Positions 8,301 to 29,439 of a stretch of DNA of 64,000 nt are shown in pieces; position 1 is the stretch's first letter; every line of letters begins with the position of its first letter. The notes under the pieces were generated by a model. It was given only the letters and a program-made list of their open reading frames with translations. It was not told the origin of the DNA and did no database searches. The translations under genes were made by a program, and so were the position numbers. The stretch spans positions 124,001 through 188,000 of the forward strand of contig JAIOYI010000004.1 of the NCBI GenBank assembly GCA_021741205.1. Reading direction: 5' to 3'. The stretch is from Emcibacter sp. GTDB taxonomy: Bacteria; Pseudomonadota; Alphaproteobacteria; Sphingomonadales; Emcibacteraceae.

Positions 8301-8936
8301 ATGAATGATATTGAATTTTCTGCTCTGTTATGCTCTCGACTGTGTCATGATCTTATAAGTCCTGTGGGAGCGATTGCCAATGGACTTGAAATTTTGGGTG
8401 AAGAAGACGATAGAGAAATGCAGACAGAGGTTATGAAGCTTCTCAATCAAAGTGCAGAAATCACATCCGCCAAGCTTAAATTTTTTCGTCTGTCTTTTGG
8501 ATCTGCGGGAGGTTTTGGGGAAATGGTACCACTGAGCGAAGCCGAGAATGCGGTTAAGGGTTTATATGCTTCGGGAAATATTAACCTCCTTTGGCAATCA
8601 GATGTTGGCGTTATGGATAAGAATGCTTTGAAGATTATGTTAAATATGATTATGCTTGCGGGAGAAAGCCTTGTACGGGGTGGAAGCCTTCTCGTTGATA
8701 TTAAAGATCAATCTCCAAAAACTAAGATTGTTGTCACCGCCAAAGGTGATAAGGTTATTTTTCAAGATTCTATTCGTTTGGCCTTAACAGGGAAATTATC
8801 CGAAGACAAAATAGAACCAAAATCCGCACCAGCGTTCCTTGCTGAAAATATTGCTCGGAAATTTGCAACCAATATTGATTATATTTCTGATGGTGAGCAA
8901 AGTTTTTCTCTTTCAGTCACCTTCTCATGTAGATAA
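8301..8936 (+). CDS. chpT: histidine phosphotransferase ChpT
   Basis: ChpT carries phosphate from the hybrid kinase CckA to the response regulators CtrA and CpdR in the alphaproteobacterial cell-cycle relay. The 211-residue protein shows the dimerisation/phosphotransfer helix CSRLCHDLISPVGAIANGLEIL, with phospho-accepting His16, and a degenerate ATPase-like second domain. The N-terminal tail is shorter than in Caulobacter. It stands at the head of a motility block, 135 bases before cheA, while ctrA lies 6 kb downstream. cckA and cpdR are not in the window. The proximity of chpT to che genes suggests, but does not prove, shared regulation. Confidence 0.9.
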   Translation: MNDIEFSALLCSRLCHDLISPVGAIANGLEILGEEDDREMQTEVMKLLNQSAEITSAKLKFFRLSFGSAGGFGEMVPLSEAENAVKGLYASGNINLLWQSDVGVMDKNALKIMLNMIMLAGESLVRGGSLLVDIKDQSPKTKIVVTAKGDKVIFQDSIRLALTGKLSEDKIEPKSAPAFLAENIARKFATNIDYISDGEQSFSLSVTFSCR

Positions 8937-9071: not shown

Positions 9072-12000
9072 ATGGATGATTTATTAAACGAATTTCTCAC
9101 AGAAACGTCTGAAAGTATTAATGAGGTGGATGTTCAGCTTGTTACACTTGAACAGGACCCGACAAATAAACCAATTTTGGATAATATATTCCGCCTTGTG
9201 CATACCATAAAAGGAACTTGCGGCTTTCTAGGGTTGCCAAGACTCGAGACGGTGGCCCATGCGGGTGAAAATGTGCTTGGGAAATATCGTGACGGCGAAT
9301 TGGTTGTCACATCCGAATCCGTTACCTTGATTCTTGCCGCTCTTGACCGCATTAAAGAGATTCTCGCAGGGCTAGAGGCCACGCAGGAGGAACCAGCAGG
9401 GGATGACAGTGAGATTATCAATCAATTAAATGTTGTGGCGTCTGGCGGTTCGGTTGAGGTTCCTCAGAAAAAAGAAGTCATCAAAGAAAAAGACTTTGTA
9501 TTGCCAGAAATCAAAAGATCTGAAAATGTTGTGCCAGGAGAAGTTTCTTTGGAAGAATTAGAGGCGGCATTTTTGGCGGCACCCGGTCCTGAGGATGACG
9601 ATGAGGATGATGCCGCATCAGAAAAAGAATCAGACGATAATCTTTTGGAGAAAATTGGCGGTCAAGATGCGGTAAAAGTGATTATTCATCTTTTCCATAA
9701 CCGTATTCTAGCGGATATGTCGGTTAAGGCTTTGATGGCGGGTGTCAATACAAAGGAAAGCAAGGAAAAAATGGGTGACTTCTTTAATGCCCATCTTGCC
9801 AATAATGCAAGCGGGGGACCATCTGTTGGCATTGCTTTTAAATCCTTTATTACAAATGGTATAACACAAACCCATAACGAGATAATTCGTGGTCTATTGA
9901 GGTCTGTATTGAATGAGGTTGATCTGCCGCCTTTGGATGTTGAGGCCGTCTTGGTCATATATGATGATTTTTCTAAAAATATTCTTTCCGAGGCCAGTAA
10001 TCATGCTAGTCAACAGACAAAACAGAATGATAAAGATGGTGCTACCGCTGCAAAGTCAGGGGAGTCGAGCATTGCTAATCAAAGTATTCGGGTAAATGTT
10101 CAGGTTTTAGAAGATCTAATGACGATGGTTAGTGAATTGGTTCTGACCAGAAATCAACTTATGCAAATTTTACGTAATAATCATGGCAGTGAATTTACCA
10201 TTCCTTTACAGCATTTAAGCCAATGTACGACAGAATTACAAGAAGGTGTCATGAAAACCAGAATGCAGCCTGTTGGAAATGCGTGGGCTAAGTTGCCACG
10301 AATTATTCGGGATTTGCAATTGGAACTGAATAAGAAAATTGATCTGCAAATGCTTGGTGCGGATACGGAGCTTGATCGTCAAGTTCTTGAAATGATTAAA
10401 GACCCTTTGACCCATATGGTGCGTAATTCTGCTGACCATGGCATTGAGATGCCAGCGGCTCGTCTTGCGGCGGGTAAAAAAGAAACTGGCGTTATTCGAT
10501 TAAATGCTTTCCATGAAGGTGGCCATATTATTATCGAGATTACGGACGATGGTGCGGGTTTACCTATTGAAAAATTAAAAGCCAAGGCGTTAAAAAATGG
10601 TTTGGCGACAAAAGAAGAATTGGATGAGATGTCTGATAATCAAATCCAAAGATTTATATTTCATGCCGGTTTTTCTACAGCAGAAAAGGTAACCTCCGTC
10701 TCTGGTCGGGGTGTTGGTATGGATGTTGTTCGCAGCAATATTGAGAAAATCGGTGGAACAGTTGACCTGAAATCCATAGAAGGAAAAGGTTCAAGCTTTA
10801 GTATTAAGATACCGCTCACACTTGCTATTGTTTCTGCTTTGATTGTTAAATGTAAAAATGATAAATTTGCTATTCCGCAAATCAGTGTTCTTGAATTGGT
10901 GCGGGCATCGAAGGATTCAGAACATAGCATAGAACATATTAATAATACGCCCGTATTACGACTAAGGGATCGTTTGTTGCCCTTGGTTCGTCTGGATGAA
11001 ATTCTTGGTATGGCCGATGCTGTCGGTTCGGATGCAGATGTTGACTCCCCTAAGAAGGGAGATGATTATATTGTCATCACCCAAGTGGGCACTTTCACAT
11101 TCGGAATTGTTGTTGATCAGGTATATGATACAGAGGAAATTGTTGTTAAGCCCGTTGCACCAATATTAAAGGATCTCCATACCTTTGCCGGTAATACCAT
11201 TCTGGGTGATGGTAAAGTGATTATGATTCTTGATCCAAATGGTATTGTAAGTCAAATTAGCGATAAAGTGGCCGATACGACCAAATTCGATATGGAAGAA
11301 GAGGACGCTAGTCAAAATAAAACGACGAGTGATAAAGAGGCCGTTCTTCTCTTTAGCGCTTGTGCCAATAATCGTCGTGCTGTTCCCTTATCCCTTGTGG
11401 CACGCTTAGAAGAAATTGATGTGAATTTGATTGAAAAATCAGATGGCCGACCCGTATTCCAATATCGTGGTAGATTGATGCCTTTACTGAATTTGGATAA
11501 TTCACAAACCTTTAAGACAGAAGGGCGTCAGCCAATTCTGGTTTTTGCTGATGGTGAAAAGACTATGGGGATTGCCGTGGATGAAATTATTGATATTCTT
11601 GAAGATGATCTTGATATCGAGCTTTCCTCTGCCATAGCAGGACAAGTAGGAACAGCCATTATTGATGGACATGCAACGGAAATTATTGATGTGGCTTATT
11701 ATATTGAAAAGGCCTTTGGAACATTGGGTACAAGCAGCACATCAGGCCATACAAGCATAGAAAATCAAAATCATATTTTGCTTGTGGATGATAGCAAGTT
11801 CTTCCTGAATATGATTAGACCATTACTGTCTGCAGCAGGTTATAAAATTACAGCAGTGGATAGCGCCTCTACGGCTTTGGATCTCCGTGACAAGGGGCGT
11901 GATTTTGATATTATTGTCAGTGATATTGAAATGCCAAACATGGATGGTTTTAGCTTTGCTACTGAGGTTCGTTCAGGCGGCATTTGGCAAAAAACACCAA

Positions 12001-12146
12001 TGATTGCTTTATCATCCCATCACACGCCCAAAGATATTGCCCGTGGTCGTGAGGTTGGGTTTGATGATTATGTTGTTAAATTGGAGCGAGATACATTGAT
12101 GACAACGATCAATGAGCAGATTAATAAAAAACAAAACGCAGCATAA
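9072..12146 (+). CDS. cheA: hybrid chemotaxis histidine kinase CheA with embedded truncated-globin domain
   Basis: This 1024-residue kinase is far longer than ordinary CheA. In order: HPt domain (about 1-105, phospho-accepting His44 in VHTIKGTCGFLG); an acidic linker; a segment at about 190-305 that aligns with group I truncated hemoglobins (LLEKIGGQDAV, HNRILAD, FFNAHLANN, GGP, NGITQTHNE); the dimerisation helices (about 335-400); the GHKL ATPase domain (N box DPLTHMVRNSADHG, G1 DDGAGLP); a CheW-like domain (about 585-715); a second, more divergent CheW-like domain (about 755-875); and a C-terminal receiver with Asp951 (SDIEMPNMDG). In the globin segment the proximal-His position is Phe259 and the B10 Tyr position is His209. 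It leads a cheA-cheW-cheY-cheB-cheR run. TTAACCA at 9000-9006 is a weak CtrA half-site candidate. No receptor gene is nearby. Confidence 0.93.
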   Translation: MDDLLNEFLTETSESINEVDVQLVTLEQDPTNKPILDNIFRLVHTIKGTCGFLGLPRLETVAHAGENVLGKYRDGELVVTSESVTLILAALDRIKEILAGLEATQEEPAGDDSEIINQLNVVASGGSVEVPQKKEVIKEKDFVLPEIKRSENVVPGEVSLEELEAAFLAAPGPEDDDEDDAASEKESDDNLLEKIGGQDAVKVIIHLFHNRILADMSVKALMAGVNTKESKEKMGDFFNAHLANNASGGPSVGIAFKSFITNGITQTHNEIIRGLLRSVLNEVDLPPLDVEAVLVIYDDFSKNILSEASNHASQQTKQNDKDGATAAKSGESSIANQSIRVNVQVLEDLMTMVSELVLTRNQLMQILRNNHGSEFTIPLQHLSQCTTELQEGVMKTRMQPVGNAWAKLPRIIRDLQLELNKKIDLQMLGADTELDRQVLEMIKDPLTHMVRNSADHGIEMPAARLAAGKKETGVIRLNAFHEGGHIIIEITDDGAGLPIEKLKAKALKNGLATKEELDEMSDNQIQRFIFHAGFSTAEKVTSVSGRGVGMDVVRSNIEKIGGTVDLKSIEGKGSSFSIKIPLTLAIVSALIVKCKNDKFAIPQISVLELVRASKDSEHSIEHINNTPVLRLRDRLLPLVRLDEILGMADAVGSDADVDSPKKGDDYIVITQVGTFTFGIVVDQVYDTEEIVVKPVAPILKDLHTFAGNTILGDGKVIMILDPNGIVSQISDKVADTTKFDMEEEDASQNKTTSDKEAVLLFSACANNRRAVPLSLVARLEEIDVNLIEKSDGRPVFQYRGRLMPLLNLDNSQTFKTEGRQPILVFADGEKTMGIAVDEIIDILEDDLDIELSSAIAGQVGTAIIDGHATEIIDVAYYIEKAFGTLGTSSTSGHTSIENQNHILLVDDSKFFLNMIRPLLSAAGYKITAVDSASTALDLRDKGRDFDIIVSDIEMPNMDGFSFATEVRSGGIWQKTPMIALSSHHTPKDIARGREVGFDDYVVKLERDTLMTTINEQINKKQNAA

Positions 12147-12171: not shown

Positions 12172-12603
12172 ATGGAAAATGAAAATAGAGATTTTGTAAC
12201 ATTAAGATTGGCTGGTCAATTGTGCGGAATTCCCGTATTACAGGTTCATGATGTATTATCCGAACAGATTATTACATCAGTTCCCCTAGCTCCACCTGCT
12301 GTGGCTGGTGTTTTAAACTTGCGGGGAAGGATCGTAACGGCTATTAATCTAAGAAAACGACTTGGATTAAAGGATAAGACAGACAATATACCTAATATGA
12401 GTATCGTTGTGGAGTTTCAAGATGAACCCTACAGCCTTTTGATTGATTCAGTAGGGGACGTTATGTCATTTCCAGAGGATGCTTTCGAGCGTAATCCCAT
12501 AACGTTGGATAAAAGATGGCAAGAAGTGTCTGGTGGGATTTTTCGTCTAAAAGGAGAGCTTTTGGTTATCCTGGATGTTGAAAAATTGTTGAATTTTGAA
12601 TAG
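12172..12603 (+). CDS. cheW: chemotaxis coupling protein CheW
   Basis: CheW bridges chemoreceptors and the P5 domain of CheA in the receptor array. The 143-residue product is a single CheW/SH3-like domain: FVTLRLAGQLCGIPVLQVHDVLSE, the conserved VAGVLNLRGRIVTAINLRKRLGL and a closing EKLL helix. The open frame extends upstream to 12112 inside the cheA tail, but the ATG at 12172 fits the family length and follows AAAAAAGG. It begins 25 bases after the cheA stop and should be co-transcribed with it. Two neighbouring hairpins separate it from cheY. Confidence 0.95.
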   Translation: MENENRDFVTLRLAGQLCGIPVLQVHDVLSEQIITSVPLAPPAVAGVLNLRGRIVTAINLRKRLGLKDKTDNIPNMSIVVEFQDEPYSLLIDSVGDVMSFPEDAFERNPITLDKRWQEVSGGIFRLKGELLVILDVEKLLNFE

Positions 12604-12670: not shown

Positions 12671-13036
12671 ATGAAATCCTGTCTGATTGTAGATGACTCT
12701 AAAGTAATAAGAAAAGTTGCAAGACGAATCCTAGAGGAACTTTCTTTTGATATCCGTGAGGCCGTTGACGGGAAGGAAGCCCTTGATTCATGTCATGAAA
12801 TGTTGCCGGATGTCGTGCTTTTGGACTGGAATATGCCCGTGATGAATGGCTTGGAGTTTCTAAAGGCACTTCGAGCCTCAGCAGGCGGGGATAAACCTGT
12901 TGTCGTATTTTGTACCACTGAAAATGATATGAGCCATATTAGTGCTGCAATATCTGCGGGTGCTGATGAATATATTATGAAACCGTTTGACCGTGAAATT
13001 ATCGAATCAAAATTTTCACAAGTGGGATTGCTATAG
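12671..13036 (+). CDS. cheY: chemotaxis response regulator CheY
   Basis: The 121-residue stand-alone receiver domain takes phosphate from CheA and acts on the flagellar switch or as a phosphate sink. The acidic pocket is Asp8/Asp9 (LIVDDSKV), the phospho-acceptor is Asp52 (VLLDWNMPVMNG), the Thr/Ser switch lies in FCTTEND and the conserved Lys in YIMKPFD. GGAG sits ahead of the ATG at 12671. The cheB GTG begins on the base after the cheY stop, which marks tight translational linkage. Confidence 0.94.
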   Translation: MKSCLIVDDSKVIRKVARRILEELSFDIREAVDGKEALDSCHEMLPDVVLLDWNMPVMNGLEFLKALRASAGGDKPVVVFCTTENDMSHISAAISAGADEYIMKPFDREIIESKFSQVGLL

Positions 13037-14188
13037 GTGAGTATAATTTCTTTAAAGGATAAAAACAGTACAGGCCAACAGGCAAGAACTGGTCAATATC
13101 GTGTGATGATTGTGGATGATTCTGTTGTTATTAGGGGACTTATGTCCAGATGGCTTCAGCAAGACCCCGCAATTACAGTGGTCGGTATGGCAAGTAATGG
13201 AGAGATGCTCCTGTCTTCTATGACGCGCTATGATCCAGAAGTCATTATTCTTGACATAGAAATGCCCGTCATGGATGGCTTAACGGCATTACCACAAATT
13301 TTCAAAATTAACCCAAAAGTTAAGGTTATTATGTCCTCAACATTGACCACCCGTAATGCTGAAATTAGCATGAAAGCCTTATCTATGGGAGCCTCGGATT
13401 ATGTGGCTAAGCCTGAAAGTAAAAATGAAGTTGGTTCTTCTATGAGTTTCCAAAAGGAAATGATTGGTAAGATAATAAATATTGCGGCCGCAAGTAGAAT
13501 GAGAAATGGTGGTGAGGTTTATAATGGTAAAATGAGCCTTATTGACGAGCAATTTAAGCCAGCGAACGTATCAATTAATAAGTCAGAAATTCGTAATTTT
13601 CCAAATGGAAAGTCTTCTGTTCTGGCTATTGGCAGCTCTACTGGTGGTCCACAAGCATTATTGGCGGTTTTGAAGGATTTGGGATCTGTGAATGTACCCG
13701 TTGTCATTACACAGCATATGCCCGCCGCATTCACGGGAATTTTGGCGAAACATTTGACGGCGAGCACCAACTTTGTCTGTAAAGAGGCCGAAGAGGGCGA
13801 CATTCTCGAAAATGGGAAAGTGTATATCGCCCCAGGTGATTATCATATGACGGTGGTTGAAAAATCAGGTCAGAAAGTAATCTCGCTCAATCAAGGGCCA
13901 CAAGAAAATTTTTGTCGCCCCTCTGTTGAACCAATGTTGAGAAGTCTTATGCAGGTTTATGGCTCGGAGATATTCGCTGTAATTCTTACGGGAATGGGGC
14001 GTGATGGTCTTAATGCTAGCCGAAAATTGATTGAAATTGGAGGAAGATTGATAGCCCAAGATGAGGAAACTAGCATTGTATGGGGGATGCCGGGTGCCGT
14101 TGCTCAAGCAGGTTTGTGTAGTGGCGTTTATCCACTTAATCAAATCGGGGCTAAAATTAAAGAGAAGTTGATGGGAATGGTACAATGA
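13037..14188 (+). CDS. cheB: protein-glutamate methylesterase CheB
   Basis: CheB removes methyl groups from, and can deamidate, chemoreceptor glutamates and so resets adaptation when phosphorylated by CheA. The 383-residue protein has an N-terminal receiver (about 20-140; MIVDDSVV and IILDIEMPVMDG) and a C-terminal methylesterase domain (about 190-380) with the serine motif IGSSTGGPQALL, the His of THMP-like QHMPAAFTG and the Asp of TGMGRDGLNA. Translation starts at a GTG at 13037, immediately after the cheY stop codon. Its last four bases overlap cheR. Confidence 0.95.
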   Translation: MSIISLKDKNSTGQQARTGQYRVMIVDDSVVIRGLMSRWLQQDPAITVVGMASNGEMLLSSMTRYDPEVIILDIEMPVMDGLTALPQIFKINPKVKVIMSSTLTTRNAEISMKALSMGASDYVAKPESKNEVGSSMSFQKEMIGKIINIAAASRMRNGGEVYNGKMSLIDEQFKPANVSINKSEIRNFPNGKSSVLAIGSSTGGPQALLAVLKDLGSVNVPVVITQHMPAAFTGILAKHLTASTNFVCKEAEEGDILENGKVYIAPGDYHMTVVEKSGQKVISLNQGPQENFCRPSVEPMLRSLMQVYGSEIFAVILTGMGRDGLNASRKLIEIGGRLIAQDEETSIVWGMPGAVAQAGLCSGVYPLNQIGAKIKEKLMGMVQ

Positions 14189-15024
14189 GAAAAGAAGACT
14201 TTGACCTAATCAGCAATATCTTAAAAGAAAGATCTGGATTGGTGCTTACGGAAGAAAAAATTTATCTTCTTGAAAGCCGCCTTACACCTATCGCTCGCAA
14301 GAAAGGCCTTGAAACTTTGGATGATCTCATTAATGAGATCAGGCTACGTCGAAAAGAAGATTTGTTGTGTGAAGTGACAGATGCTATGACGACCAATGAA
14401 TCTTTCTTTTTTCGGGACAACACACCATTTGATTTATTCCGAGAAGATGTTATGCCGAGTCTTATGGAGTCCGCAGTGGCAAGTAAGAAGATACGTATTT
14501 GGTGCGCCGCGGCCTCCACTGGACAAGAACCCTATTCATTGGCGATTATTTTAAGTGAAATGGAAGCTAAATTAAACGGTTGGACTATTGAGATTATAGG
14601 AACTGATTTATCGCAAAAAGTTCTTGATAAGGCAAAATCGGGCATTTATTCGCAATTTGAAGTGCAAAGAGGACTGCCAATTAAATTATTAATGAAATAT
14701 TTTACTCAAGCGGGGGAAATGTGGCAAATTTCTGAAAAAATAAGAAAAATGGTTACCTTTAGGCCTTATAATCTCTTGGATAATTTTACGCCGCTTGGTT
14801 CTTTTGATGTAATTTTTTGTCGCAACGTGTTAATTTATTTTCAACAAGACACAAAGGCTGATGTCTTAAACCGTATGCATCGTCAGATAAATACCAAGGG
14901 TACATTATTCCTTGGTGCTGCAGAAACAGTTCTTGGGTTAACAGAAAAATTCAAACCTGTACAAGGCAAAAGAGGGATGTATCATACTGCTGAATATAGC
15001 TCTCAGGTACGAAAAGTAGGATAA
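14185..15024 (+). CDS. cheR: chemoreceptor methyltransferase CheR
   Basis: CheR methylates receptor glutamates with AdoMet, opposing CheB. The 279-residue product has the N-terminal helical CheR_N part (FDLISNILKERSGL, with MTTNESFFFRDNTPF) and the AdoMet-binding domain (IRIWCAAASTGQEPYSLAIIL, then IIGTDLSQKVLDKAKSGIYS and FDVIFCRNVLIYF). Length and motifs are standard. The ATG overlaps the cheB stop as ATGA, so the two are translationally coupled. It is the last gene of the run; a hairpin lies 40 bases downstream. Confidence 0.96.
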   Translation: MRKEDFDLISNILKERSGLVLTEEKIYLLESRLTPIARKKGLETLDDLINEIRLRRKEDLLCEVTDAMTTNESFFFRDNTPFDLFREDVMPSLMESAVASKKIRIWCAAASTGQEPYSLAIILSEMEAKLNGWTIEIIGTDLSQKVLDKAKSGIYSQFEVQRGLPIKLLMKYFTQAGEMWQISEKIRKMVTFRPYNLLDNFTPLGSFDVIFCRNVLIYFQQDTKADVLNRMHRQINTKGTLFLGAAETVLGLTEKFKPVQGKRGMYHTAEYSSQVRKVG

Positions 15025-25697: not shown

Positions 25698-26462
25698 CTA
25701 TCGTTGTTTTTTATCACGGGGTCTTTGTTTCATCAAGCCTGTAATGCCTAAGACTATAAGACTTATTGCGGCCAAGTCCATAATATAAGAACCAAATGAT
25801 CCAAAAATATGACCAGAATGGAGATCAAGAATAAGGCGGTAAAGGCTAATCCCTTTTCCCTGAAAATCGGACAATATTTTTTCTGTAATTTCTTTTGGGG
25901 CGAATTGTGGAGGGGGGGAGGGTATCTCGAATTTTTTTGATGTTTTTTTCCATATCAGAAAATTGTCATCAGAAATAAAATTACCCTGTGCGGTATGAAT
26001 CCAGATCATGTTATCAGTTGTTTTTCCAATCGCTACTATGGAATCTGGAAGCGATGCTTTGTCTATTTTCTCGACCAACGACCCATCGTTTAAAAATAGT
26101 GAAAGACTGTCCTTTTCTCCTACGATGACCAGATCATTTAATATGGTGATGCCAACAGGGCGGCTGGTATTTTTATCTATCATTATGCCATTTAAATATA
26201 GGCGACCCTCAAGCCAGCTGACCCAAATATTGGCCTCTTTAAAATGATGGGGGTTTTCTTTGGGGGAGATGCCGTAAAGAGCCGATATAATACCATTCTT
26301 GATTGTGATTTGGTTAAGGTTAAACATTTCTGTACGGTTAAGAATAAGACCCGTTATGCTTAAGATGAAAATCAGTAAGAGAGAGCTATACCCAACCCAT
26401 CTATGCCATTGGCGAATTTTTCTTTGACGGATGTTTTTATTTTTTATTAGGCGTGGGGACAT
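25698..26462 (-). CDS. PepSY-type membrane protein, candidate electron-transfer subunit
   Basis: The 254-residue protein has an N-terminal basic segment with WHRWVGYSSLLLIFILSITGLILN (first helix, about 20-45), a periplasmic stretch of about 170 residues and a C-terminal helix (YIMDLAAISLIVLGITGLM). The WHRW-x-G start and the DLHSGHIFGSFGSYIMDL motif are those of PepSY-associated transmembrane proteins, in which His residues of the two helices can bind heme. The periplasmic part carries repeated short beta strands. Its first 26 bases overlap the FMN-binding gene, so the two are coupled. I infer a role in moving electrons across the membrane to the FMN protein. Confidence 0.72.
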   Translation of the reverse strand: MSPRLIKNKNIRQRKIRQWHRWVGYSSLLLIFILSITGLILNRTEMFNLNQITIKNGIISALYGISPKENPHHFKEANIWVSWLEGRLYLNGIMIDKNTSRPVGITILNDLVIVGEKDSLSLFLNDGSLVEKIDKASLPDSIVAIGKTTDNMIWIHTAQGNFISDDNFLIWKKTSKKFEIPSPPPQFAPKEITEKILSDFQGKGISLYRLILDLHSGHIFGSFGSYIMDLAAISLIVLGITGLMKQRPRDKKQR

Positions 26463-26991
26463 TTTTTTCCATCACTTTTTTATGAAGATATAGGGCGAGA
26501 CGGCTCACCCTTTTCATGGCATTGGTGGAGAGCGTTGCCCCCGAAATACCATTGATCGGTTGAGAAAGGTTCATATCTTCTGTTAAATAAACGGTGTTAT
26601 ATTGGTTGCTATAGGCGGGAAAGCGAATTTCTGAGCCATGACTTTCCCGATAGGCTAAAACCGTCAAATTTATAATAGCATTATTTTCAATGGTAATACC
26701 TGTAGTGATGGGCATGACTTTGCCGATTTCATCCAATATCCACACCGTGCGGTTGTTCTGCCTGTAAAAGCGGTAACGTAACGGAAAATTTGATCGCTGG
26801 AGTATTTTTGTTATCTCGGGTTTAATATCTCTTGTTACCCAAAGGATCTCAGGCTGTATATCCGGTTTACCGAGGGCAGCCACAATATAATCATCTGTTT
26901 TCATATAATTTTCACTGGAAGAACTTTCATAGGCAAAAGAGGGTAAAATGATCATCAATAAGAAATATAGAAACAACAAAAACCGTATCAT
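26437..26991 (-). CDS. exported FMN-binding domain protein
   Basis: The 184-residue protein carries a signal peptide (FLLFLYFLLMIILPSFAYES) and a C-terminal FMN-binding domain like those of NqrC/RnfG. The flavinylation motif is present as NGISGATLSTNAM, where the second Thr (S-G-A-T-x-S-T) is the residue to which FMN is esterified. ApbE, the enzyme that attaches the FMN, is encoded 1.5 kb away across the shared promoter. This arrangement is strong functional support. Part 45-110 (ITKILQRSNFPLRYRFYRQ) is a less conserved region. The gene overlaps the PepSY-type gene downstream. Confidence 0.8.
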   Translation of the reverse strand: MIRFLLFLYFLLMIILPSFAYESSSSENYMKTDDYIVAALGKPDIQPEILWVTRDIKPEITKILQRSNFPLRYRFYRQNNRTVWILDEIGKVMPITTGITIENNAIINLTVLAYRESHGSEIRFPAYSNQYNTVYLTEDMNLSQPINGISGATLSTNAMKRVSRLALYLHKKVMEKNVPTPNKK

Positions 26992-27002
26992 AAGATTATT
27001 TC

Positions 27003-28304
27003 CTAAAATTGAAGGCCAACACCAAGATTAATGCGTCTGTCTTCTTTATTATTATTAGTGAAATCATCAATCTGGTAATCCATTTTTAAAACAACCCGTT
27101 CATGAGGCCAATAGTTTATGCCGATCATTGTCTGTTTATAGGCGCTATCTGTATGGTCGCCAGCCTCATTATCCCATAGGCTGTAACGGGCAAAAAATCC
27201 AACGGCGTGATTATGCCTTAAGGCAATTTTATAAGAGGGTTCCACATACCATCCCCTTTGGATATTACGTCCCAGAGATTTTGCAGTATCAGAATTTACA
27301 TTCCACTGTGCATAAAGGGCGCGTAAACCAAGGGTGCTGTTTTCACTGACACCCTGTTTTATATCGGTATGGATTTCAAACAACGTGGCCGATGCCTTTT
27401 CATCATCAAGGCTGCTTTGGGTGATGTCTGTTTGATATTGAAAAGATGCCGCAATATCAATACCGTTTGTAACATGCCATTTTGCCCGTGCGGTGAGGGC
27501 AGAATTTTTCCAAGGTGCCTCGCCGACTTTTTTGCGACCATTACGAATTTTATAGCCATAACCTGTGGTATCTAGGCCGGAATGAATCATGATATCATAC
27601 CCTATATTATCCGATAAATTACCGCTTAATTTAGCGCCAGCCTCCCACCATGTGGCGGGGATAATATTGGTTTCAACATTGTTGCGTTCCACACCATAAA
27701 AACTTGGCGGTTCATGGGTTTCATTGATAATGCCTACGGGAATAAGCTGGACACCAAGGCTTGCCTTGTGATTTTCATTAATATCCATTTCTATATAGGC
27801 CTGTTCGATTTCAACTTCGCCGACCTGTCCTTCTCCTGAAATGGAATGTTCAATTTCAAATTCACTGAAGAAACGAATTTTTTCATTAAATTCATGACTG
27901 AGAAACACAACAAAACGGTGCAGATCAATTTGATCCTTTTTACCCGCATTATAATGAAGTTCCGTATAACCACCAACTGATGTCGCACTTTGACTTACCA
28001 TGTTATTTGGCGATGATATTTGGTCTATGGCGTCTCCTGTGGCTTCTATTTTCTTTTCTGCTTCGGCAACTTTTATAGTGGTTTCATCAATCTTTTTGTT
28101 GGTTATACCTACAATTCTTTCAAGCCGTTTAATTTGTTCTTGCTGTTCCAAAATCATTTGCCACATTATTTCCTTGCTTGGCATTTCGGAAAGTTGGGAT
28201 TTTTCTTGTGCTGCGGCGCTGGATAGGCATAAAGACAGCGATATCACCATTATAGATGTGCTAAGTTTTAGGGAACTTCTCAATTTTTTAGTATTTTTAC
28301 GCAT
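27003..28304 (-). CDS. outer-membrane porin with N-terminal coiled coil
   Basis: The 433-residue protein has a signal peptide (LSTSIMVISLSLCLSSAAAQ), a coiled-coil stretch (IMWQMILEQQEQIKRLERI through EAEKKIEATGDAID, about 45-95) and a beta-barrel portion starting at SVGGYTELHYNAG. The barrel closes with INLGVGLQF, ending in Phe as outer-membrane proteins do. The sequence QAYIEMDINENHKASLGVQLIPVGIINETHEPPSFYGVERN resembles phosphate-selective porin O/P-like proteins. The pore's solute is unknown. It heads the porin-FMN-PepSY(-uppP) run and faces a Fur-like box, so I infer iron-dependent expression. Confidence 0.83.
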   Translation of the reverse strand: MRKNTKKLRSSLKLSTSIMVISLSLCLSSAAAQEKSQLSEMPSKEIMWQMILEQQEQIKRLERIVGITNKKIDETTIKVAEAEKKIEATGDAIDQISSPNNMVSQSATSVGGYTELHYNAGKKDQIDLHRFVVFLSHEFNEKIRFFSEFEIEHSISGEGQVGEVEIEQAYIEMDINENHKASLGVQLIPVGIINETHEPPSFYGVERNNVETNIIPATWWEAGAKLSGNLSDNIGYDIMIHSGLDTTGYGYKIRNGRKKVGEAPWKNSALTARAKWHVTNGIDIAASFQYQTDITQSSLDDEKASATLFEIHTDIKQGVSENSTLGLRALYAQWNVNSDTAKSLGRNIQRGWYVEPSYKIALRHNHAVGFFARYSLWDNEAGDHTDSAYKQTMIGINYWPHERVVLKMDYQIDDFTNNNKEDRRINLGVGLQF

Positions 28305-28356
28305 TTACAATCTCATTTTAATATTAATAATCGTTATTAATATCAACTGTTATCAG

Positions 28357-28376
28357 AAATGATTTGCATTATCAAT
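28357..28376. promoter_or_regulatory. Fur-like box in the porin-apbE divergent promoter
   Basis: AAATGATTTGCATTATCAAT reads on the other strand as ATTGATAATGCAAATCATTT, close to the classical Fur consensus GATAATGATAATCATTATC (7-1-7 halves). It lies 53 bases from the porin start and 68 bases from apbE, fitting control of both directions. An additional AT-rich palindrome, TTAATAATCGTTATTAA, lies at about 28324-28340. Confidence 0.55.
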
Positions 28377-28443
28377 CGCAAAAACATAATAATTACATAA
28401 TTGTTGTTTTACTTATTAATTCAGATGGAATGATATCTATCAA

Positions 28444-29439
28444 ATGGTACAACGTCGACGCGTGATTAAACTTTTAGCCGCTTCTTTGGCGGTTTATATG
28501 GTTCCTAAAAGGGGCCTTTCAGAGGTTATTGCTCATAAATCACAGGTAGAATTATATTCGTGGAATGGATTTGCCTTGGGGGCAGATGTATCCCTGCAGC
28601 TTTATCATGATGATGGTCTTAAGGCAAAAACCATCATCCAAAATGCGGTTAACATCATTAAATCTATGGAAAGTCTTTTTAGCCTTTATCAGGAAAATTC
28701 TATAATTTGCCAATTAAATCAGAACGGAATTATTTATAATCCACCAACAGAATTTATGGATTTAATCTCTATCAGCCAAAAAATAAGCAAAATGACCTAT
28801 GGTGCATTTGACATTACGGTTCAACCCTTATGGCAATATTACCGGTCAAAATTTTCACAAGAGACCAATCATGACGCAATGACATTTCATGAATTCAAAG
28901 AGGTGTATGATCTTGTGGGGTATGAGGGTCTGCATATTCATGAAGATAAGATTTTCTTTGATAAAAAGGATATGGCGATAACCTTAAACGGCATTGCCCA
29001 AGGCTATGTGACAGATCGTGTGGCCGAATATTTAAAAAGTGAGGGGCTGACATCGGTATTGGTTGATATGGGCGAATATCGTGCCCTTGGTCCACGTTTT
29101 GATCATGCTCCTTGGCATATTGGTCTTGCGGATCCTTTACGGCAAGGCGGGCTTTCTGATGTGGTTGAACTCACCAAGGGCGCCATTGCCACATCGTCCT
29201 ATTCTGGGGATATTTTTGATGAGAAGGGGGCGTTCCATCATTTATTTGATCCCCGCACGGGCAAGAGTGCAAATCTTAATATGTCGGTTACGGTGAGGAC
29301 CGCTTTGGCGACGACAGCGGATGCCTTATCCACCGCATTTTTTGTGCTTTCTAAAAAAGATATCGAGAAATGCCTAAAAAACATATCCGATACAGAAGTC
29401 AGGTTGACCGACGGGTCTGGTGCTGTGATAATGCTCTGA
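28444..29439 (+). CDS. apbE: FAD:protein FMN transferase ApbE
   Basis: ApbE transfers FMN from FAD to a Thr in the S-G-A-T-x-S-T motif of exported flavoproteins. The 331-residue protein begins with a Tat/Sec-like region (MVQRRRVIKLLAASLAVYM) and contains the family core: ALGADVSLQLYHDD, the TYGAFDITVQPLWQYY stretch, LNGIAQGYVTDRVAEYLK, VDMGEYRALGPR and HHLFDPRTGKSANLNMSVTV. FDITVQPLW corresponds to the FD-x-T-v-x-PL motif. It is divergent from the porin/FMN-binding/PepSY run, its likely target locus. pabB-pabC follows 26 bases downstream. Confidence 0.95.
   Translation: MVQRRRVIKLLAASLAVYMVPKRGLSEVIAHKSQVELYSWNGFALGADVSLQLYHDDGLKAKTIIQNAVNIIKSMESLFSLYQENSIICQLNQNGIIYNPPTEFMDLISISQKISKMTYGAFDITVQPLWQYYRSKFSQETNHDAMTFHEFKEVYDLVGYEGLHIHEDKIFFDKKDMAITLNGIAQGYVTDRVAEYLKSEGLTSVLVDMGEYRALGPRFDHAPWHIGLADPLRQGGLSDVVELTKGAIATSSYSGDIFDEKGAFHHLFDPRTGKSANLNMSVTVRTALATTADALSTAFFVLSKKDIEKCLKNISDTEVRLTDGSGAVIML

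Follow-up and report, generated by a model that had tools for sequence, protein, structure and literature searches.

We find that a chemotaxis histidine kinase, CheA, encoded in a 64,000-nucleotide stretch of Emcibacter DNA (the window), carries a globin inside its polypeptide: residues 190-305, between the phosphotransfer domain P1 (Hpt) and the dimerisation domain P3, are a homologue of the group I truncated hemoglobins (trHbs). An earlier note on this DNA had proposed a trHb-type globin in the place usually held by P2, and profile searches bear this out. We are highly confident of both the globin homology and the loss of the normal heme site in this domain. To the history that would join them, in which a heme-type globin entered the CheA of alphaproteobacteria long ago, was often lost and here persists heme-free in the P2 slot, we give about an even chance.

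Emcibacter belongs to the Emcibacterales, Alphaproteobacteria, by NCBI taxonomy, and the window's genome comprises 2.57 Mb in 18 contigs. The Hpt, dimerisation, ATPase and CheW domains by which a CheA is recognized are all present in the protein by Pfam, and open reading frames together with Pfam matches give the locus the order chpT-cheA-cheW-cheY-cheB-cheR (Table 1). Beyond cheR, the opposite strand encodes a Trans_reg_C response regulator, presumably CtrA, and after it comes a probable FliI-type ATPase. No P2 or CheY-binding domain appears in the list of Pfam matches of the window's CheA with E <= 10, of which the HMMER filters discard most above about 0.1, and none of the Pfam matches of this protein is to the sensor-globin (protoglobin) family PF11563. 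Across the genome, the Bac_globin profile PF01152 finds three matches, the CheA domain and two further trHb matches, and there are five MCP matches and one protoglobin match, the last in two pieces. Elsewhere in the window, a run of genes at 25698-29439 presumably encodes, as judged by eye, a membrane protein of PepSY type, an FMN-binding protein, a porin and a flavin transferase resembling ApbE.

Table 1. Chemotaxis locus of the window, with the domains and pocket codons of its CheA (positions in the window)
Feature	Position	Strand	Basis
chpT-like histidine phosphotransferase gene, upstream of cheA	8301..8936	+	PF10090 E 4.4e-24
cheA, 1024 aa, Hpt - globin - H-kinase_dim - HATPase_c - CheW - CheW - receiver	9072..12146	+	ORF + Pfam
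Hpt (P1), residues 3-96 of CheA	9078..9359	+	PF01627 E 4.3e-15
Group I truncated-hemoglobin-like domain, CheA residues 190-305	9639..9986	+	PF01152, PDB trHbN, family profile, hhalign
Codons His206-Leu-Phe-His209 (positions B7, B10)	9687..9698	+	alignments
Codon Phe256, proximal heme-ligand position F8 (His in trHbs)	9837..9839	+	alignments
H-kinase_dim (P3), residues 336-396 of CheA	10077..10259	+	PF02895
HATPase_c (P4), residues 444-583 of CheA	10401..10820	+	PF02518
First CheW domain (P5), residues 589-728, then second CheW stretch	10836..11255	+	PF01584, 2 stretches
Receiver domain, residues 902-1013 of CheA	11775..12110	+	PF00072
cheW (start codon picked by eye)	12172..12603	+	PF01584 E 6.5e-32
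cheY	12671..13036	+	PF00072 E 3.1e-29
cheB	13037..14188	+	PF01339 E 1.6e-56
cheR	14185..15024	+	PF01739 E 8.6e-63

The globin assignment is carried by several searches. The isolated segment, aligned to positions 1-108 of the 121 in PF01152, scores 30.1 bits (E 6.1e-7) and the whole CheA 24.2 bits, both exceeding the curated threshold of 21 bits. Its best relative in the PDB by phmmer is M. tuberculosis HbN (E 1.6e-9), with 18 distinct trHb sequences below E 0.003. A profile of 33 CheA-embedded domains reaches trHbs in the PDB at E down to 2e-14 and aligns by hhalign with nine other trHb domains over 118 columns at 99.3% probability, and one built from 13 CheA-embedded globins of other families, the window's excluded, detects the window domain at E 6.9e-13. 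Together, the Pfam, phmmer, profile and hhalign matches rule out a chance resemblance to globins, and a P2-like fold for residues 190-305 was dropped, as Pfam showed no P2 match. As a control, 29 CheAs from a class search were checked against globin profiles at i-E < 0.1; 25 have no match and four carry a globin (two of the 29, L154 and L162, miss much of the N-terminal part). The Gly-Gly of the A-B turn recurs throughout the window's order, Gly196 in all 35 domains and Gly197 in 34, the window's included. The GGP at residues 248-250, which the earlier note had counted as a trHb match, lies about five residues past the trHb GGP, does not align with it and is a coincidence. For the 2-on-2 globin fold, structure prediction, which the same note had suggested, gives only a low-confidence picture: the helices of two AlphaFold models follow trHb order and trHbs top both Foldseek lists, but AlphaFold worked with only two sequences, the models have mean pLDDT of 57 and 53, and the structure matches reach no better than E 0.009 and 0.011.

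The heme site of the domain has departed from that of the trHbs. To place the pocket positions, the domain was aligned with 36 trHb domains that lie outside CheA; the positions (F8, B10, CD1, E7 and E11) are named as in HbN. In the window these positions hold Phe256, His209, Met222, Ser230 and Met234, respectively; the alignment of AFKSFITNG with the trHb pattern AHAxLVxxG moves F8 from Phe259, where it had first been placed, and agrees with the earlier placement of B10. All 36 trHb domains not embedded in CheA, two of which belong to trHb-PAS proteins, have His F8, and none of the 35 domains of the window's order does. Of the 21 domains embedded in CheAs elsewhere in the class, 11 have it (9 of 19 in the linker and 2 of 2 in CheW); eight rows labelled single were left out of the pocket counts, being pieces of CheA. 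Tyr B10 is present in none of the 35 and 10 of the 21, Phe CD1 occurs in 13 of the 35, and Tyr B10, Phe CD1 and His F8 occur jointly in 9 of the 21 and none of the 35. With the proximal His absent from every domain counted, a heme sensor is improbable in the window's order, and normal heme binding by the domain is, as the earlier note had supposed, unlikely. The note's reading is supported in part, as to a trHb-type globin fused inside CheA where P2 usually sits; its idea of a sensor is hypothetical for the window domain and better supported by the CheAs of other class families with a full heme pocket. Phe occupies F8 in three lineages, the window's family (f1), f94 (L119, L196 and L197) and f111 (L198 and L199).

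Other residues of the domain are well kept, with His206, Glu282 and those of helix B nearly invariant. His206 replaces Asp or Glu at B7 in 34 of the 35 order domains, and His209 is present in 20, with Ala instead in 11. Within the window's family both histidines are found in 21 of 21 domains, and HLFHNR, in helix B, is the domain's longest conserved run. Among the alternative heme ligands once suggested, His209 is conserved in the family, but His241 (2 of 37) and His268 (4 of 37) are not.

The search for further CheAs with the insertion, also suggested at the outset, found them in 37 of 60 genomes sampled from the order, the window's own included, and in 18 more genomes of the class. All 37 match the profile from 13 CheA globins of other families (weakest E 0.0012). 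Eight genomes have a CheA without the globin (G016, G022, G033, G034, G040, G046, G049 and G051), the CheA of G021 is cut ahead of the domain, and 14 genomes are without a close orthologue. In all of the eight except G033 the linker is short and the protein whole apart from it. The linker of G033 (L046) was considered as a globin, being of globin-like length and aligning in place, but it has no Pfam match and, with filters off, none to three globin profiles; its globin was either replaced or has diverged past recognition, and G033 is excluded from the counts of 35 domains and 37 genomes. Four CheAs of f6 were examined, and none has the domain. L035 was rejected as a chance match (a Roseburia protease). 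Order rows L034 (a copy of L009), L048, L049 and L051-L055 were dropped before the distribution alignment, L014 later for its X letters, and L011, L029 and L046 ahead of alignment A1.

Where it is present, the domain is 16-64% identical to that of the window, the ATPase domain 73-95%. Its dN/dS is 0.04-0.19 in the 11 computable of 12 pairs, and in 8 of these the C-terminal linker has the higher value. The linkers flanking the domain mostly have dN/dS above the domain's, still under 1, and several dS values exceed 1; we regard this as a weak test of selection.

In the class sample of 385 genomes, searched with a class profile, the 18 genomes with a confirmed linker globin, besides the window's own, fall into ten family codes (f44, f66, f88, f94, f98, f102, f109, f111, f120 and f130). 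The gene order chpT-cheA-cheW-cheY-cheB is common to L115, L119, L120, L121 and L124 and absent from the loci of L117, L118 and L123. One genome, G304, has two CheAs of globin type, one whose globin has His F8 and one without it (L116 and L200). In L115:2354-5953 (G137) and L125:2-2620 (G159) a second globin lies inside the first CheW domain (P5), splitting the CheW match, and both second globins have His F8 and Tyr B10. PF11563 gives secondary matches, below cut-off, in L115 and L117. Outside CheA, a trHb domain stands at the N-terminus of a PAS-repeat protein in L127:1465-4329 (G363) and L128 (G271), and the C-terminal end of L127 is an MCP signalling domain. Class candidates in G716 and G301 proved not to be CheA. 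In G705 a broken frame of 319 aa, which is uncounted, begins like a CheA and contains a partial globin, and G110 has a globin piece at a contig edge that ends like a single-domain gene, its CheA being cut before the linker. In a phylum search, none of the long globin-matching frames among the matches listed (G549, G583, G564, G582, G499 and G365) is a CheA; a plasmid collection holds trHbs in 32 records, and among the best 30 of these 32 none is annotated as CheA.

To consider the origin of the insertion, we compared trees of the domain and of the CheA core. The globins of the order form one clade in the domain tree (33 rows, support 100/98), and the order group minus f6 forms one clade in the CheA-core tree (100/98). 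The absences in G016, G022, G049 and the f4 genomes fall inside the latter clade; as they are nested among globin-bearing CheAs, they are read as losses, and the globin was lost at least four times in the order. The CheA-core tree left out ten rows of the order and, from the class, three that were partial, besides four duplicates and two truncated rows; enlarged to 82 rows by three partial rows and six of seven later class CheAs, it requires at least 13 changes of globin state, and the number stays at 13 when L046 is recoded as globin-less. Rooted on the long-branched outgroup f6, its first branches bear globins with His F8 (L116, L117, L118 and L123), the exception being L200, which is without it. 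For a single clade of all class linker globins, p-AU is 0.244 after removal of 16 rows, and 0.354 without L046 (45 versus 32 rows), values that neither establish nor reject such a clade. An early single insertion of a trHb in alphaproteobacterial CheA, followed by many losses of the domain and several of the heme ligand, is the simplest history. Several separate insertions fit the tree as well as one early gain with many losses, and the two cannot be told apart.

We propose that CheA acquired a heme-binding trHb early in the history of the class, where it would have placed a gas input (O2, NO or CO) on P1-P4 phosphorylation, and that the window's lineage may then have lost the heme and retained the fold as a heme-free regulatory domain. 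In the window the domain would stand in for P2, tethering and spacing P1, with the conserved HLFHNR of helix B as a putative docking face whose partner, at a guess, could be CheY, the receiver domain or P4. Such docking and tethering would tune how frequently P1 meets the kinase or a response regulator. We advance this P2-like mechanism tentatively, at somewhat less than an even chance; counting against it, the kinase core evolves far more slowly than the domain, a contrast that a spacer would fit as well.

The main rival to docking and tethering is a non-heme ligand, metal or pH sensor, in which the emptied heme pocket, together with His206 and His209, would bind a metal, protons or some small ligand and alter the presentation of P1, giving CheA a cytoplasmic input of its own. 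The HLFHNR run and the two histidines kept throughout the window's family suit such a site, and the change from His to Phe at F8 in f1, f94 and f111 may indicate selection for a filled, hydrophobic one. There is precedent for non-heme globins in RsbR, a stressosome protein that carries the globin fold without heme. The HemAT globin domain, according to the available text of PMC7542364, binds ethanol without the heme. Set against these points, the replacement of His209 by Ala in about a third of the order's domains (11 of 35) and a ligand and two-His geometry that are purely putative make us consider such a sensor unlikely.

A neutral spacer, that is, a dead globin retained merely because it provides a folded linker of suitable length, would accommodate the recurrent loss of the domain (at least four times in the order), its fast evolution, the short linkers of globin-less orthologues that are otherwise whole, and the dN/dS below 1 in adjoining linkers also. 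Yet the domain has the lower dN/dS in most pairs compared with the C-terminal linker, and the near invariance of His206, Glu282 and helix B sits poorly with a mere spacer, which we judge distinctly improbable. Very improbable indeed is a heme sensor with an unusual ligand, the heme being held via His209, His206 or a non-His ligand: both histidines sit on helix B, whose position B10 belongs to the distal side of the pocket in trHbs, but the window has Phe at F8, no domain counted in the order has His there, Tyr B10 is missing throughout, CD1 is Met, and the other ligand candidates, His241 and His268, are unconserved. An assembly or annotation artefact is practically out of the question, with the domain in a single uninterrupted frame and full-length orthologues carrying it, about 54-80% identical, in many separate genomes.

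Docking and tethering concerns the heme-free domain of the window; a wider reading takes in the heme-type members, for which one would naturally propose that gas acts on P1-P4 chemistry. Alphaproteobacterial CheA may be, now or ancestrally, a gas-sensing kinase whose linker heme trHb gates autophosphorylation or phosphotransfer directly, bypassing chemoreceptors, with several lineages, including the window's, later becoming heme-free and re-using the globin for regulation. To this we give somewhat less than an even chance, and with the same caution we suggest that the second globin inside the CheW domain of two CheAs could join in. As some related CheAs keep the heme His, some bacteria may sense gas in the kinase rather than in a receptor. 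If this is true, a full-pocket globin in the CheA of several families would mean gas sensing inside the array's own kinase; CheA is described, in the available text of PMC10782961, as a histidine kinase without its own sensor domain. The related kinases, heme-type, heme-free and with the domain absent, form a natural series for testing its role.

Among known proteins, the group I trHbs (M. tuberculosis HbN, Chlamydomonas THB1 and cyanoglobin) resemble the window domain in sequence along its length, in the GG turn and, by the low-confidence models, in helix order, and are its best PDB matches; they differ in that the window domain is embedded in a kinase and is without His F8, Tyr B10 and Phe CD1. 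The non-heme globin of RsbR, likened here by description only, is also a heme-free globin in a signalling protein, with a different output. We found no report of a globin within CheA in the titles and abstract openings of the matches listed (for example, the best 25 of 189) from the open-access literature. The words "kinase," "fusion" and "chemotaxis" are absent, by word search, from the available text of a trHb survey (PMC4720485), as is "globin" from the main text, as available, of a 2023 survey of CheA architectures (PMC10782961), and the accessible parts of PMC3770913 and PMC8788690 contain both CheA and trHb and handle them separately.

Globins joined to chemotaxis or kinase output are described, in the parts of the papers available, for the globin-coupled sensors HemAT and AfGcHK (PMC13401364 and PMC8697598), in which a sensor globin forms the N-terminus of a receptor or an ordinary kinase, unlike the trHb inside CheA. 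Corallococcus Cc_4972, by the available account a Bac_globin-PAS-MCP chemoreceptor (PMC6194562), likewise places a Bac_globin domain in a chemotaxis protein, but a receptor rather than the kinase; the trHb-PAS-MCP combination of L127 is thus already published. The P2 domain of CheA lies between P1 and P3, is weakly conserved and is missing from many lineages, as the available text of PMC10782961 describes. The window globin shares this position, the weak conservation and the absence from many lineages, in a CheA with no Pfam match to P2. Similar in architecture, by the same partial source and by domains alone, is class F5, in which CheA has a receiver and two CheW domains (PMC10782961): its core domains and their order are those of the window's CheA, in which, by contrast, a globin fills the linker between P1 and P3.
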